NCBI GenBank assembly: GCA_017961295.1
Contig: JAGCXL010000001.1
Coordinates: 1-45,750 of the forward strand
Length of the DNA: 45,750 nucleotides
Direction of reading: 5' to 3'
Origin: Elusimicrobiaceae bacterium
Lineage (GTDB): Bacteria; Elusimicrobiota; Elusimicrobia; Elusimicrobiales; Elusimicrobiaceae
Shown here piece by piece: positions 3,339 to 42,118 of the stretch. The notes under the pieces are model-generated. The model was not told the DNA's origin. It saw only the letters and a program-made list of their open reading frames with translations, and ran no database searches. A program made the translations under genes and the position numbers. Each line of letters opens with the position of its first letter. The first letter of the stretch is position 1.

Positions 3339-4292
3339 ATGCATACCCATTTACGCGCGTGCGTTTTCAATCAGTTTCACTCGCCCGCAGACGTGGTAGA
3401 GGAAACCTTTTCCAGTGACATTAAAACCGTCACCTCGGGTATTTTTCGCACTCCGTTTCCGTTTGATAAAATCACTTTATCGGCCAATTTCCGCACCGCT
3501 ACCGACGGTTGCCTTTTGTTGCAAGTGCAAGTTCGCGTAAACAATACGTGGAGTAATTTTTATAAATTAGGGCTCTTGTCGGGCAAATTTAAAACCAGTT
3601 TCCCGTCGCAAAAAGATGCGTTTGGAAAAGTAGAAACCGACGAGCTTGTTTTATCCCAACCCGCCCAGGCATACCGTTACCGTTTGCAATTTTACGGGGA
3701 TGCCGAGCTTTTGTCTTTAGCGGCCAGTATCGTGCGTGCTCCTTTTGTGTATGACGAAAAATCGGCCCTGCACTTGCCGAGCGGAACCAATATTCAACAA
3801 GTGCGCCCTCTTTCTCAAATGCAACAAGATACGCCGCACAAGCGCCGCATTTGTAGCCCCTGTTCGCTTTACATGGCGCTTAATTCCCTGGGATACGTGG
3901 TACCGCTGGCGCAAATTTTGCCGCGGGTATTTGACCAAACGGCCGACATATACGGCAACTGGCTTTTTAATATGGCCGCGGCGGCCGAGTTTGGCGCGCA
4001 GGCCTTTTTCCGTCGGTTTTCTTCGCTGGCGGAATTAAAAGAATTTGTCACGCCGGATAGTTTGGTAATTGCCAGTATCGCTTTTAAAAAAGACGAACTT
4101 CCCGGCGCTCCCCTAGAAAAAACACCCGGTCACTTGGTGCTGATTCGCGGTTACAAAGACGGTAAAATTCTAGTGGCGGACCCGGCTGCCCCCGATGATA
4201 ATAGCGTCCTGCGCGAATATGACGCCAAAGCCTTTGCCGGTGCGTGGTTGCAGAACAAGCAAGGTGCCGCGTACGTAGTGAGGCGCGCATGA
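3339..4292 (+). CDS. C39-like cysteine peptidase domain protein
   Basis: This 317-residue protein has a C-terminal papain-like (peptidase C39_2 type) domain: Cys172 in ICSPCSLYMAL aligned with the CGPTSLAM-type active site, His265 in TPGHLVLIRGY and Asp281 in VADPAAPDD. The N-terminal 150 residues look beta-rich and are not recognised. There is no signal peptide from this start. The ATG at 3339 lies seven bases after tRNA-Pro and has no Shine-Dalgarno sequence; the reading frame is open back through the tRNA, but upstream starts would encode the tRNA sequence. It overlaps the next gene by ATGA, so peptide hydrolysis coupled to peptide capture is a reasonable inference. Catalytic activity is not proven. 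Confidence 0.72.
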   Translation: MHTHLRACVFNQFHSPADVVEETFSSDIKTVTSGIFRTPFPFDKITLSANFRTATDGCLLLQVQVRVNNTWSNFYKLGLLSGKFKTSFPSQKDAFGKVETDELVLSQPAQAYRYRLQFYGDAELLSLAASIVRAPFVYDEKSALHLPSGTNIQQVRPLSQMQQDTPHKRRICSPCSLYMALNSLGYVVPLAQILPRVFDQTADIYGNWLFNMAAAAEFGAQAFFRRFSSLAELKEFVTPDSLVIASIAFKKDELPGAPLEKTPGHLVLIRGYKDGKILVADPAAPDDNSVLREYDAKAFAGAWLQNKQGAAYVVRRA

Positions 4293-6025
4293 AAAAACTA
4301 GGGTTTTTGCTACTGGCCGTTTTGTGTTTTTTTGCGTGTGCCCGGCCCGAACTTCCAGACACGCTTATTGTAATTCACAAAGGGGAAATGGAATCGTTGG
4401 ACCCGGTCTATTCGTACGACGGGGTTACGCACGGCATGCTTATTAACGTCTATGACACGCTCTTAAAATTTAACGGCAGCTCTTTAACCGAACTTTTACC
4501 CTCTATTTCCACCCAAGTGCCTACCGTACAAAACGGGTTGCTTTCCGCAGACGGATTAACGTATACGTTTCCTATCCGAAAAGGGGTCAAATTTCACGAC
4601 GGTACGGAACTTACTCCCGAAGATGTGCGTTATTCTTTGATGCGCTTTTTACTTTCGGACATTTCCGGCGGTCCGTCCAGTTTGCTTTTAGAACCTATTT
4701 TAGGGGTTTCTTCCACCCGCAACGCGCAAGGCGAAATTACGGTAGATTTTAAGGATGTAGAAAAAGCCGTACGCGTGGAAGGGGATAATGTTGTAATTAC
4801 GCTTAAACGTCCGTTTGCGCCGTTTTTATCTATCCTGGCGCGTTGGAGTTACATTGTCAGCAAATCCTGGGCGGTAAACCGCGGCGCGTGGGACGGCAGT
4901 GAAGAAAACTGGAAAGCGTTTAATAATTTTGCCAAAGACAGTTCGCCGTTTTTTCAAGACTCCAACGGGACCGGTCCCTTTAAAATTACCCGTTGGGATA
5001 TCGCCGGCAAAACGTTGGTGCTAAGTGCTAATGAAAATTATTTTGCCGGAGCACCGCAACTAAAAACAATTTTTATGCGCACGGTGGAAGAGCCCTCTAC
5101 GGTACGGCGGATGCTGGAAACCGGTGATGCGGACGTGGCGGAAGTATCGCCTAAATTTATCAATCAATTAAAGGGAAATAAACACGTAACGTTGTATGAT
5201 AATTTACCCCGCTTGCGCACCGACCCGGTGCTGTTTTTTACGCGGGATATTAACATGGATGCCAACCCGGATGTGGGGTCCGGCCAGTTGGACGGACAGG
5301 GGATTCCCGCTAACTTCTTTGACGATACAGATTTACGCAAAGCATTTTTGTACGCGTTTGATTACGACGGGTTTTTAAACCAGTCTATGGAAGGGCGCGG
5401 ACAACGGGCCATCGGCCCTGCTCCGCAAGGGTTAGTGCCTCAAGATGGCAGTTTTAAACGCTATGAGTTTGACTTAAAAAAAGCCGAGGAACATTTTAAA
5501 AAAGCTTGGGGCGGACAGGTATGGGAAAAGGGTTTTAAATTTACAATTACCTACAACACAAGTGGGGAAATGCGCCAAATTGCTGCTGAAATTTTAAAGC
5601 GAAATGTGGAAAAACTAAATCCTAAATTCCAAATTGATTTGCGCGGCGTAACTTGGCCCGCTTTCCTGGAAAAAACCGCTAAACACCAAATGCCCATTTG
5701 GGCGCGCGGGTGGGTGGCAGACTTTGCCGATGCGCACAATTTCTATTTCCCTTTCTTGCACAGTCAAGGGCGCTATGCGCTTTCGCAAGGGTACAAAAAC
5801 CCGCAGGTAGACGTATTGATTGAACAAGCCGTAGCGCAAACCGACCCGCAAGAACGTAACGCTTTATATCAGCAAGTGCATAACCTAATGTATGAAGATG
5901 CCATGCAGCTCTATACCGTCCACCCGACGGGCCTTTGGGCCATGCGCAGCAACGTGAAAGGGTTTACCGACAACCCGGTGTATATGGGAATTTATTTCTA
6001 TCCAATGCACAAAATTCCTTCCTAA
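4289..6025 (+). CDS. oligopeptide/dipeptide-binding lipoprotein (SBP_bac_5 family)
   Basis: A 578-residue extracytoplasmic solute-binding protein of the DppA/OppA type. The N-terminus is a lipoprotein signal with Cys17 (CFFAC; the lipobox is loose). Family marks include MESLDPVYSYDG, YTFPIRKGVKFHDGTELTPEDVRYS, GTGPFKITRW and a late ADFADAHNFYFPFLHS segment. It should capture peptides for an ABC importer, but no permease or ATPase gene is nearby. It overlaps the C39-like gene by ATGA, which ties the two together. Its TAA stop is the first bases of a palindromic element (6022-6130), so the end of the mRNA should fold into a hairpin. Family call is firm, ligand unknown. Confidence 0.88.
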   Translation: MKKLGFLLLAVLCFFACARPELPDTLIVIHKGEMESLDPVYSYDGVTHGMLINVYDTLLKFNGSSLTELLPSISTQVPTVQNGLLSADGLTYTFPIRKGVKFHDGTELTPEDVRYSLMRFLLSDISGGPSSLLLEPILGVSSTRNAQGEITVDFKDVEKAVRVEGDNVVITLKRPFAPFLSILARWSYIVSKSWAVNRGAWDGSEENWKAFNNFAKDSSPFFQDSNGTGPFKITRWDIAGKTLVLSANENYFAGAPQLKTIFMRTVEEPSTVRRMLETGDADVAEVSPKFINQLKGNKHVTLYDNLPRLRTDPVLFFTRDINMDANPDVGSGQLDGQGIPANFFDDTDLRKAFLYAFDYDGFLNQSMEGRGQRAIGPAPQGLVPQDGSFKRYEFDLKKAEEHFKKAWGGQVWEKGFKFTITYNTSGEMRQIAAEILKRNVEKLNPKFQIDLRGVTWPAFLEKTAKHQMPIWARGWVADFADAHNFYFPFLHSQGRYALSQGYKNPQVDVLIEQAVAQTDPQERNALYQQVHNLMYEDAMQLYTVHPTGLWAMRSNVKGFTDNPVYMGIYFYPMHKIPS

Positions 6026-6130
6026 TTTTGTCCATTTCGTTGTTGTGTGCTCGGTCGGATACCTCCGCGCTACCGCGCGCGTGCCGCCAGTATACCTCCC
6101 TCGCATCCGCCTAGAACTGGGCAAAATTAG
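6022..6130 (+). repeat. TACC-loop palindromic element, copy 1
   Basis: Outer arms CTAATTTTGTCCATTTC (6022-6038) and GAACTGGGCAAAATTAG (6114-6130) pair over 17 positions with one wobble and one mismatch. The 48-base core at 6057-6104 is shared with copies 2 and 3. Its centre, CGCGC-TACC-GCGCG (6066-6079), is a perfect stem with a TACC loop. GGATAC pairs with GTATACC around it with one bulge. The left arm includes the stop codon of the binding protein gene. Confidence 0.85.
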
Positions 6131-6189
6131 TTTAGAATTTTCTTTCATCTTGTAGGTAGATTTTTCCGTTTGAAAAAGCGTTGCGCCAC

Positions 6190-6218: not shown

Positions 6219-6223
6219 AACCT

Positions 6224-6297
6224 TGCGGGGTAGAGAAGCCCGGTATCTCGCAAGGCCCATAACCTTGAGATCGTTGGTTCAAATCCAACCCCCGCAA
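6224..6297 (+). tRNA. initiator tRNA-fMet (CAT) with unusual bases
   Basis: The body matches bacterial initiators: GCGGGGTAGAG start, T loop TTCAAAT, A72 and A73, anticodon CAT. Three positions differ from the usual form. Base 1 is T, which can pair weakly with A72 where most initiators have a C-A mismatch. The anticodon stem CAAGG/CCTTG has A29-T41, so only two of the three hallmark G-C pairs remain. The loop CCCATAA has C33 where T33 is nearly universal. No CCA is encoded; a run of eight T follows at once. Confidence 0.92.
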
Positions 6298-6306
6298 TTT
6301 TTTTTC

Positions 6307-6342
6307 TTCCTAATTTTCCCTATTTCGTCGTTGTGTGCCCGG
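6307..6342 (+). repeat. half copy (left arm) of the palindromic element, copy 5
   Basis: TTCCTAATTTTCCCTATTTC and the following GTCGTTGTGTGCCCGG match the left arm of copy 1 with about five differences. The core and right arm are absent. It begins ten bases after the initiator tRNA, so that tRNA is flanked by element sequence on both sides. Confidence 0.65.
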
Positions 6343-12901: not shown

Positions 12902-14197
12902 ATGTTAAAACGTTTTGTATTTTTAATGCTTGCCGTTGTTTTTGTGACGGTCGGCGCGTACGGCGCGCCTAAAAAAACAGATGTTTACATTGGTATTACC
13001 TCTGCGGGTAAGCACCAGTTGCCGGCAATTGCTATGCCGGTTTTTTCCGCAGATGAGGCCAGCAAAGAAGCTTCTGCTACGGTGCATGATGTACTGCGCG
13101 CGGATTTGCTCTTTGCCCGTTATTTTGATGTAAAGGAAGGCGGACCGTTTTTTGATGTTAATAAAGTGAAAGATTCACTTAAAGAATGGGCGAACGTGAC
13201 GCCGCGGCCCAGTTATGTGCTTACAGGTACGCTTAGCTACGCGGAACCCTATTACACCATCAAGATTTACGTTTATGACATGTCTACCCGTTCTGCCGTA
13301 TTTGCCAAAGCGTTTAAGGGAAGTAAAGCCAGTTTGCGCCGTTTAGCACACATAGCTTCGGACCAAGTAATCGCTTCGCTTTTGGGTAAACGAGGGATTG
13401 CCGACACGAAGATTGCGTTTGCCAATAATGCCACTAAGCATAAAGAAATTTATGTGGTAGATTACGATGGTAAAAACTTGCAACGCTTAACCAAGGATAA
13501 TTCAATTTCTCTCTTGCCGCGTTGGAGTAAAGACGGGCGTATTTTCTATACCACGTACAAGTATCGTAACCCGGATATTTTTGCCATTGACTTACGCGCG
13601 GGTAAAATTTCGCCTATTATCATTAAGAAAGGGCTTAGTTTAATTGGCGGTGTGTCGCCTGACGGCAAAGCTTTGGTGTTTACCAGTTCCGGCGGCATGA
13701 ACCCGAGTATTTATATTTACAATTTGGAAACCCAACAAAAAGTACAAATTACCAATAAAGCCTCGGTAGATGGTTCTCCGTCGTACTCACCGGACGGGAA
13801 ATATATTACCTTTGTATCGAATCGTGCCGGCAATCCGCAAATTTATGTTATGGAATTGGCCACCGGGCAAACTCGACCGCTGACCAAAAAATTTAACTGG
13901 TCCGACACTCCCCAATGGTCACCGACCGGAGAGTGGATTGTATTTTCCGGGCGCGAAAGTGCATACCACCCGATGGATATTTTCTTAGTGGACCTTACCG
14001 GTACACAAATTAAACGCCTGACCAGCGACGCCGGCTCCAACGAAGATCCTACCTGGTCCCCCGACGGACGTTTTATTGCCTTTACCACTACGCGTAATGG
14101 GCGGCGGCAGCTGTATATGATGGATATGGACGGCAGTGCGCCGCACTTGCTTGCCGATGTAGAGGGAGATTCGTTTACACCGCACTGGAGCATGTAA
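12902..14197 (+). CDS. tolB: Tol-Pal system beta-propeller protein TolB
   Basis: A 431-residue periplasmic protein. It has a signal peptide (about 1-21, ending AYG-A), an N-terminal alpha/beta domain (about 25-170) and a six-bladed propeller with repeated SPDGKYITFVSNRAGNPQIYV-like blades: for example WSKDGRIFYTTYKYRNPDI, YSPDGKYITFVSN and WSPDGRFIAFTTTRNGRRQLY. TolB binds Pal and helps outer-membrane constriction. The ribosome site is weak (CGGGGCC), so translation may be coupled to cpoB 12 bases upstream. tolQ, tolR and tolA are not in this window. The stop is followed at once by palindromic element copy 2. Confidence 0.93.
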   Translation: MLKRFVFLMLAVVFVTVGAYGAPKKTDVYIGITSAGKHQLPAIAMPVFSADEASKEASATVHDVLRADLLFARYFDVKEGGPFFDVNKVKDSLKEWANVTPRPSYVLTGTLSYAEPYYTIKIYVYDMSTRSAVFAKAFKGSKASLRRLAHIASDQVIASLLGKRGIADTKIAFANNATKHKEIYVVDYDGKNLQRLTKDNSISLLPRWSKDGRIFYTTYKYRNPDIFAIDLRAGKISPIIIKKGLSLIGGVSPDGKALVFTSSGGMNPSIYIYNLETQQKVQITNKASVDGSPSYSPDGKYITFVSNRAGNPQIYVMELATGQTRPLTKKFNWSDTPQWSPTGEWIVFSGRESAYHPMDIFLVDLTGTQIKRLTSDAGSNEDPTWSPDGRFIAFTTTRNGRRQLYMMDMDGSAPHLLADVEGDSFTPHWSM

Positions 14198-14207
14198 ATT
14201 TTTTCCC

Positions 14208-14312
14208 AATTTGGCCTAGTTCGTTGTTGCTCGCTGGGTCGGATACTTCCGCGCTACCGCGCGCGTGCCGCCAGTATTCCTCCCTCGCGTGCGCCTAGAA
14301 CCAGGCCAAATT
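14208..14312 (+). repeat. TACC-loop palindromic element, copy 2
   Basis: Outer arms AATTTGGCCTAGTTC (14208-14222) and GAACCAGGCCAAATT (14298-14312) pair at 14 of 15 positions. The core at 14241-14288 differs from copy 1 at two or three positions. Compared with copy 1, the outer arms differ at two positions where both strands have changed so that pairing is kept. It begins 11 bases after the tolB stop and has the same orientation as tolB. Confidence 0.85.
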
Positions 14313-14401
14313 TGTTTAAAATTACCCCGTACCTCGGGAAACTGGCCCTGTCAGCGACAATCTGATAAATCAGCCAATAAAATTTGAGGTTTTTGGACAG
14401 C

Positions 14402-30810: not shown

Positions 30811-30823
30811 TAAGTATATATAT

Positions 30824-31207
30824 TTATATTTCTGTCTCTGTTTCTGTCTCTGTGTCTGGTTCTGTTTCTGTTTCTGTATGCTTGGCGCTTGGGCTTAAAG
30901 CAAGTGTACCAGCGCCGCTTCCGTCGATTTGTTGTTGTTTTTGGGCGCGGTTGGCTTGTGTTTTTTTGCCGCCTTTGCGCCCGGCTTTTACGCAGGCTTG
31001 GTAGGCCTGGCGGGATTCTTCCTTCCAGGCATAGAGCATCTTAAAAAGTTGGCGTTCGGGCCCGGTTTTGTGGGAGCATTTTGAGTGAGTATTGCTAAAG
31101 GCATTTTCGCACACTTCAATTAGAGCTTGGCCCAGTTGCTCGGCGGTTACAAAGCGGTTTAGGGCCAAAATATCGGCGGTATAGAGTTTAATATAAGGGG
31201 TTTTCAT
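30824..31207 (-). CDS. small basic protein with a TE-repeat tail, phage-like flavour
   Basis: A 127-residue protein without a signal peptide. Residues 1-95 are helical and basic, with QLFKMLYAWKEESRQAY and the end VKAGRKGGKKTQANRAQ. This GRKGGKK-type segment after a helix is common in phage replication-organiser or DUF6291-like proteins. The tail is low-complexity, HTETETEPDTETETETEI, encoded by a TCTGTT/TCTGTC-like hexamer run on plus (30830-30876). It has the best promoter of the window (31249-31277) and AGGAG as ribosome site. No other phage gene is nearby. Possibly a remnant or a domesticated regulator; function unknown. Confidence 0.5.
   Translation of the reverse strand: MKTPYIKLYTADILALNRFVTAEQLGQALIEVCENAFSNTHSKCSHKTGPERQLFKMLYAWKEESRQAYQACVKAGRKGGKKTQANRAQKQQQIDGSGAGTLALSPSAKHTETETEPDTETETETEI
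30830..30876. repeat. TCTGTY hexamer-type microsatellite inside the orphan gene
   Basis: The plus strand repeats TCTGT[TC] with small variations, encoding Thr-Glu pairs on minus at the extreme C-terminus. Slippage here would change the tail length or frame. Confidence 0.75.
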
Positions 31208-40748: not shown

Positions 40749-40854
40749 AATTTTCCAAAATCGTCACACTTGGCGGTGACTTGTCCTTGACGTAGCTACC
40801 GCTACGCCTATGCGGGCAACTTTTCCCCGCCAATTGTTTAGATTTTGAAAAATC
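40749..40854. repeat. TACC-loop palindromic element, diverged copy 4
   Basis: Three nested stems can be drawn: AATTTTCCAAAATC (40749-40762) with GATTTTGAAAAATC (40841-40854), 12 of 14 pairs; TTGGCGG (40770-40776) with CCGCCAA (40827-40833); and CGTAGC-TACC-GCTACG (40791-40806), perfect. The architecture and the TACC loop match copies 1-3, while most stem bases differ. It lies 41 bases after the terC stop. Confidence 0.7.
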
Positions 40855-41854: not shown

Positions 41855-41905
41855 GAGGACAAAGTATGCCGTTAAAAAGGGCAGCAAAAAAGCTGAGGAT
41901 GGGAG
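41855..41905. repeat. 51-bp direct repeat, left copy
   Basis: Identical over 51 bases to 42010-42060. Its last 14 bases (41892-41905) copy the 3' end of tRNA-Thr. Confidence 0.97.
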
Positions 41906-41952
41906 AAAGGCGTGTATTTTTGCAAAGATTTTTGGCGGCAGACGCGAACGCA

Positions 41953-42000
41953 GCGAGGGAGCAATACTGGCGGCACGCGCGCGGTAGCGCGGAGGTATGC
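41953..42000 (-). repeat. TACC-loop palindromic element, copy 3 (core only)
   Basis: The 48-base core is present on minus, with the perfect CGCGC-TACC-GCGCG centre. The surrounding pair is GCATAC with GTATTGC, where copies 1 and 2 have GGATAC with GTATACC or GTATTCC. The outer arms of copies 1 and 2 are absent. It lies within the 104 bases between the two 51-bp direct repeats. Confidence 0.85.
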
Positions 42001-42009
42001 GACCCGAGC

Positions 42010-42060
42010 GAGGACAAAGTATGCCGTTAAAAAGGGCAGCAAAAAAGCTGAGGATGGGAG
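42010..42060. repeat. 51-bp direct repeat, right copy (overlaps tRNA-Thr 3' end)
   Basis: Identical to 41855-41905. Bases 42047-42060 are the T-arm and acceptor 3' strand of tRNA-Thr; the other 37 bases are its 3' flank. Confidence 0.97.
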
Positions 42061-42118
42061 TCGAACCCACAACCTACGGTTTACAAAACCGTTGCTCTGC
42101 CAGTTGAGCTACCTCAGC
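42046..42118 (-). tRNA. tRNA-Thr (TGT)
   Basis: Acceptor GCTGAGG/CCTCAGC, D stem GCTC/GAGC, anticodon stem ACGGT/ACCGT with loop TTTGTAA (anticodon TGT), T stem GTGGG/CCCAT-type with one weak pair, discriminator T. No CCA. A T run follows at once. The 3' end is duplicated 155 bases downstream. Confidence 0.93.

Follow-up and report, generated by a model that had tools for sequence, protein, structure and literature searches.

The window analyzed here (45,750 nucleotides, the whole of contig C27 of an 897 kb, 67% complete genome of an Elusimicrobiaceae bacterium) contains several palindromic repeats with a TACC-type loop at gene ends. Small palindromic repeats are common in bacteria, but statements on their mobility and choice of target mostly rest on guesswork. 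The question raised by this locus is whether such repeats are REP-type sequences, structured 3' ends or non-autonomous mobile elements, the three possibilities offered by a sequence-only reading of the window. The main family, denoted family A, is a short, mobile DNA hairpin of rumen Elusimicrobium bacteria.

Palindromic elements of the window and their distribution

The three full copies proposed by the sequence-only reading are all recovered by the covariance model R1, run with the filters off, and the 48-base core that these copies were said to have in common is 94% shared. The half copy after tRNA-fMet is also real and comprises only the left arm. The palindrome at 40749-40854, in contrast, had been taken for a diverged copy of the same element but belongs to a separate family B. 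The location of the copies downstream of gene ends holds for tolB, tRNA-Thr and tRNA-fMet but not for copy 1, which begins inside its gene. The features are as follows (scores are those of R1).

4244..6025, + strand: periplasmic binding protein, host gene of copy 1; the frame terminates within the element
6011..6143, + strand: family A copy 1, 133.8 bits, at the 3' end of the binding-protein gene
6223..6298, + strand: tRNA-fMet, host gene of the half copy
~6299..6342, + strand: half copy, consisting of just the left arm, immediately 3' of tRNA-fMet; absent in relatives
12902..14197, + strand: tolB, host gene of copy 2
14195..14327, + strand: family A copy 2, 137.9 bits, directly 3' of the tolB stop codon
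40749..40860, + strand: family B palindromic element, ~35 nt downstream of the terC stop and in the opposite orientation to terC; 15.8 bits, E = 0.3
41855..41883, - strand: left-arm remnant after the second CTCCCATCCTCAGCTTTTTTGC repeat, part of the 51-bp repeat D10; G017 has the remnant alone
41884..41905, - strand: second copy of the 22-bp direct repeat CTCCCATCCTCAGCTTTTTTGC, behind copy 3, a likely target duplication
41914..42046, - strand: family A copy 3, 69.9 bits, directly 3' of tRNA-Thr(TGT), starting from its final base
42039..42060, - strand: first copy of the direct repeat CTCCCATCCTCAGCTTTTTTGC, made up of the tRNA-Thr 3' end and the element start
42046..42118, - strand: tRNA-Thr(TGT), host gene of copy 3

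Copy 1 starts within the final codons of the binding-protein gene and supplies its stop (6023-6025, TCCTAA); the encoded protein terminates with K-I-P-S*, compared with ...MYKE* or ...MYK* in most relatives, which are element-free. At the tolB site of copy 2, the element is also present in G017, and is missing from G066, G069, G073 and G063.

By the covariance model, the genome of the window carries 12 copies of family A, and many more are found in the genus. In the rumen Elusimicrobium genus, 38 of the 66 genomes contain the element, at 0-20 copies per genome (20 in G066 and 15 in G017), with a total of ~150 among the matches listed. Across the phylum sample, there are matches at E <= 1e-5 in 50 of 295 genomes, among them further genera of the family and a single family from a different class, in which the copies also sit at the 3' ends of tRNA genes (tRNA-Val, -Ser, -Arg and -Gln). 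Matches in public genomes come from Elusimicrobium or Elusimicrobiaceae assemblies, mostly rumen-derived; the DNA-pattern matches in Clostridia, Verrucomicrobia, Mediterranea, Patiriisocius and one viral contig fail the covariance model, and phage and plasmid collections yielded no family A match. Nearly all of the genomes are metagenome assemblies, and many contigs stop at copies of the element. In the open-licence literature, no earlier description of family A was found, and one may exist elsewhere.

Other repeats were noticed at these loci. The element at 40749 aligns with five family B members, and this family is seen in at least five related loci (L035, L061, L289, L296 and L298), with the layout ATTTTCCA, variable stem, TACC-type loop and CTCAAATCTGAAAAATCAT, the ends being also given as ATTTTCCA and TCTGAAAAATCAT; the look of the TACC loop is common to families A and B. 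Family B sites lie tens of nucleotides past gene ends or behind terminators. A third repeat at tRNA ends, family C (AAAAACCGCGAGCCCGGCC...CCGTCAGG), was found at L226, L235, L236, L239, L309 and L314, after tRNA-Pro and tRNA-Thr; it holds the reverse complement of the T-arm of the host tRNA, ends with a copy of the 3' end of that tRNA and has repeated gene ends on both sides as well. The window itself contains a tandem repeat with a 45-base unit (AAGCTCGCCCGTTCCCTTCCGGAACTCGGCCCTTTCC...) at 1677-1851, overlapping ORF 1316-1975, and a 12-base tandem repeat (TCTGTCTCTGTT) at 30819-30877, at the reverse-strand ORF 30824-31207.

The hairpin and the maintenance of its pairing

Family A is an imperfect hairpin of ~130 nt in which the internal loops are conserved, and the stems vary freely yet stay complementary. 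In the direction of the gene, the 5' half consists of a T-rich start with TTTC, an internal loop, the variable stem P1 (~10 bp), the conserved CGTTGTTGC, the variable stem P2 and the conserved GAATACCTC; the apex is a short G+C stem carrying a TACC-like loop, and the 3' half runs through the conserved ACAGTATACTTC, the partner of P2, the conserved GCGCCTAG and the partner of P1 to GAAA. Two pairs of conserved internal loops are opposed in this fold, CGTTGTTGC facing GCCTAG and ATACCTC facing GTATACT. The element as a whole, ~140-146 bp, has no gene of its own, its terminal sequences are not conserved like normal terminal inverted repeats, and there is no visible conservation in the final ~20 bp of the insertion.

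Alignment A1, of 28 copies, gave a model of 133 positions with 37 pairs. The first fold came from a plain MAFFT alignment and agrees with that of the covariance-fitted alignment, which leans towards its own structure. Among the 111 copies of alignment A2, standard pairs occupy 94.9% of the pair cells, both sides have changed in 857 pair cells, and the covariation score is 0.546, compared with 0.150 for shuffled data and no more than 0.115 for slid partners. The identity of P1 arms between copies is 42% where the cores are at least 90% identical and 39% for distant copies. Near-identical cores carry unrelated P1 stems, but the idea that P1 is remade at each insertion was dropped, given that the core is more conserved everywhere and orthologous sites can retain P1. 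Concerted evolution of the cores within genomes was likewise rejected, with an identity of 0.655 within and 0.660 between genomes.

A fold under selection as RNA would be expected to accumulate more G-U than A-C mismatches. This is not the case for family A, in which both kinds are equally rare: the stems contain 46 G-T and 53 A-C mismatches when the two conserved loop columns are left out, and 56 and 57, respectively, on all rows. The acceptor stems of 68 distinct tRNAs from the same loci, which had been chosen for pairing, contain 27 G-T and no A-C mismatches. The stems are shown to be free in sequence but complementary, and the counts give no sign of RNA wobble, so the pairing is most likely maintained at the DNA level, and the suggestion of a structured 3' end, in the RNA sense, is not supported. 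Pairing could be kept by either of two routes, selection for a DNA hairpin or correction of one arm on the other, and such arm-to-arm template correction could likewise yield the symmetry of G-T and A-C. A search of Rfam 15 at gathering and relaxed thresholds produced no match for family A. At copy 1, a terminator-like site was looked for and none was found; termination may still take place at copies whose P1 has A/T tracts.

Insertion at gene 3' ends with duplication of the end

Placement was counted for the 101 distinct copies that have 300 nt or more of upstream sequence, with genes called by simple ORF rules. Forty of these copies follow a tRNA, 38 of them beginning 0-5 nt past its 3' end, and 24 follow the end of an ORF, 17 of them beginning 0-2 nt past the stop. 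Altogether, 55 of the 101 copies start within these distances of a tRNA 3' end or a stop codon and are oriented as the gene is; among random non-ORF positions taken from these loci, a co-oriented ORF end lies 0-3 nt upstream in only 1.5%. Neither of the outcomes that the sequence-only reading had named as refuting it, a lack of further copies or a random spread in both orientations, was observed. About a third of the copies (37 of 101) adjoin no recognized gene end. One copy (L104) adjoins RNase P RNA, beginning at its 3' end, another (L048) lies after a complete terminator-like hairpin, and in a group of four (L040, L038, L068 and L123) a small transcript ends with a terminator-like hairpin, and the element begins at the T tract of that hairpin. 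The transcript-like region of this group, with a promoter-like sequence and the terminator-like hairpin, is conserved, with the element at its end, in four species, and has no match in Rfam.

Mobility is apparent from the comparison of filled and empty sites. At tRNA-Glu, the close relative G017 has a filled site and the genome of the window an empty one; the two differ by exactly 161 bp, including a 21-bp duplication of the gene end (ATCTCGTACGGGACGTTTTTT). The reverse holds for tRNA-Thr(CGT), filled in the genome of the window and empty in G017, with a difference of 158 bp and a 12-bp duplication (CCCGTCTTGGCT). At tRNA-Pro of G027, an 18-bp duplication encloses the element together with part of another repeat. 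Copy 3, at tRNA-Thr(TGT), is flanked by a 51-bp direct repeat that consists of 22 bp of the gene end and 29 bp of the left arm; in G017, this site lacks copy 3, has a single left-arm remnant and is 155 bp shorter, a state that can be read as either preceding the insertion or resulting from a deletion between the repeats. The element is missing in related species at the orthologous sites of xerD, tolB, EtfA, HIT, ArgS and CysS, and a close relative is element-free at a gene that is filled in the other genome, the native downstream hairpin being kept in both. Because clean pairs of filled and empty sites with duplicated gene ends are found, family A is a mobile element that targets gene 3' ends; these sites bear out the earlier suggestion of a non-autonomous mobile element.

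The duplications are not limited to these pairs. A strong repeat of the upstream flank (score >=13) is present downstream of 33 of 105 copies, compared with 2 of 312 mismatched controls, and in the simple class, with the chance match L024 left out, the second gene end is usually 29-38 nt past the hairpin. The comparisons thus show family A inserting, in gene orientation, just past the 3' end of a gene (a tRNA, RNase P RNA, terminator end or stop codon), and leaving behind a second copy of the last 12-21 bp of the gene, which ends ~34 nt beyond the hairpin. Since these last 12-21 bp are copied, the gene stays intact and the site remains open to further insertion. The second gene end is often followed by a further left half-element, in many cases from an element unlike the first, and one gene end thus seems to have received more than one insertion. 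Other copies lie downstream, in many cases as remnants of the left arm. Tandem arrays with a truncated final unit also occur. Truncated copies mostly retain the gene-proximal end, and fragments that consist of the right arm alone exist as well. The duplication length, variable between 12 and 21 bp, is unusual for a cut-and-paste transposase.

Mobilization and relation to known systems

Taken together, family A is probably a non-autonomous mobile DNA element that acts via a folded DNA hairpin and inserts at gene 3' ends. A putative enzyme supplied in trans would recognize the folded hairpin, for which we infer a single-stranded DNA substrate, through the conserved internal loops, make staggered cuts 12-21 bp apart and join the left end of the element to the gene 3' end. 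The search for a mobilizer covered four enzyme families, and the candidates, namely Y1 transposase, reverse transcriptase, Cas1 and an extra tyrosine recombinase, were rejected as absent or not enriched in the element-rich genomes. Most of these genomes, several of them with a completeness of 95-99%, lack the first three enzymes.

The RNA-level reading, under which family A would be a structured RNA or a terminator or processing element of transcript 3' ends that was multiplied by duplication and retained for stabilizing or ending transcripts, agrees with the strongly conserved fold and with the exact, gene-oriented location of the copies at gene 3' ends. It is nevertheless unlikely, considering the equality of G-T and A-C mismatches against the exclusive G-T of RNA stems in the same loci, the lack of an Rfam match, the close relative that is element-free at the same gene with the native hairpin present in both, and the several copies (L048 and the L040 group) that lie beyond a complete intrinsic terminator. 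We find quite improbable a SINE-like retroelement, in which an antisense RNA with an A-rich 3' end would prime on T-rich nicked gene ends and so generate variable duplications and truncations: reverse transcriptase (PF00078, RVT_1) is found in 10 of the 66 genomes, mostly element-poor ones (G026 and G071 are exceptions), and is missing from most of the element-rich genomes, including G011, G073, G064, G063, G019 and G027, which are 95-99% complete; furthermore, there is no RNA-level pairing signal, and right-arm-only fragments exist, even if the T-rich left end, the 12-21 bp range of duplication lengths and the retention of the gene-proximal end in most truncated copies are in line with such priming.

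A further rival is recombination of the folded hairpin, as at integron attC sites, by the host XerC/XerD or a different tyrosine recombinase. The recognition of attC likewise relies on a hairpin bearing conserved unpaired bases, and XerC and XerD are the sole tyrosine recombinases found in G066 (20 copies) and G017 (15 copies). Both enzymes, however, are present in zero-copy genomes too, the attC core sites RYYYAAC and GTTRRRY occur at the element ends in 0 of 111 and 2 of 111 copies, respectively, and duplications of 12-21 bp are not known from Xer recombination; this scenario, too, has a low probability, similar to that of the retroelement. Integration by a Cas1-type integrase, casposon-like or CRISPR-like, would involve the same kind of target, duplications of a similar order of length and insertions stacked beside the target, but no Cas1 (PF01867) was detected in the element-rich genomes, several of which are incomplete, and the carriers of Cas1 have mostly few or no elements, which makes this route very improbable. 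The scarcity of elements in Cas1-bearing genomes could be a lineage effect or an exclusion effect.

The preferred reading, a mobile DNA hairpin, can be set against the known classes of small repeats. As with REP/REPIN sequences and their RAYT transposases, family A comprises short palindromic extragenic repeats present in many copies between genes. A REP unit, however, is ~20-40 nt long, whereas family A is ~130 nt (133 model positions), is attached precisely to gene 3' ends and makes long target duplications. The Y1 transposase (PF01797) is absent in G000, G066, G017, G069, G064, G073, G011, G027 and G006, with one weak match in G026; with the element of this length and Y1/RAYT missing from most element-rich genomes, the REP-type assignment of the sequence-only reading is not upheld. 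MITEs are small, non-coding, multi-copy elements with target duplications and empty sites (PMC10969869), and family A is likewise short and non-coding, with empty sites and insertions of 161 and 158 bp that include 21- and 12-bp duplications. In contrast to MITEs, the arms are complementary within a copy and not conserved between copies (the P1 identities given above), the duplications are of variable length and the target is strictly a gene end; no parent transposon was found for family A, none of the four enzyme families tested being associated with it. The Rickettsia palindromic elements, described as in-frame insertions inside metabolic genes (PMC10969869), are similar in being palindromic, ~150 bp long, divided into several families, able to extend reading frames and carried by a host-associated bacterium with a small genome, but family A abuts gene ends instead of lying in-frame within ORFs, and copy 1 merely replaces the last codons.

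In function, family A comes closest to the casposase, an enzyme whose targets are the 3' ends of tRNAs or the 3' regions of protein genes and which produces duplications of 14-15 bp (A. boonei; PMC6614799). Gene 3'-end targets, target duplication and stacking at the target are shared by family A with casposons and CRISPR spacer integration; unlike casposons, family A lacks Cas1 and coding capacity and has a hairpin in place of terminal inverted repeats around genes. The attC sites of integrons are hairpins located just after genes, with variable stems kept by structure and with conserved unpaired bases. Apart from the near-absence of the core sites, by which attC was rejected, family A differs in its association with tRNAs and housekeeping genes instead of cassette arrays and in leaving target duplications.

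The spread across the phylum, combined with the absence of the tested enzymes, points to an unrecognized mobilization system. It is conceivable, if short of an even chance, that family A represents a new class of mobile elements, a DNA hairpin recognized by shape and mobilized by an enzyme without a prior link to transposition, which would insert at any gene 3' end with a 12-21 bp duplication and stack there. In family A, both mobility and target choice are visible through the comparison of species: insertions occur at the ends of genes for tRNAs, RNase P RNA and proteins, the copying of the last bases preserves the gene, and the same end is used again. An insertion activity that is specific for gene ends and spares the gene would have use as a tool, and family A raises the question of how an enzyme may recognize the end of a gene irrespective of its sequence.
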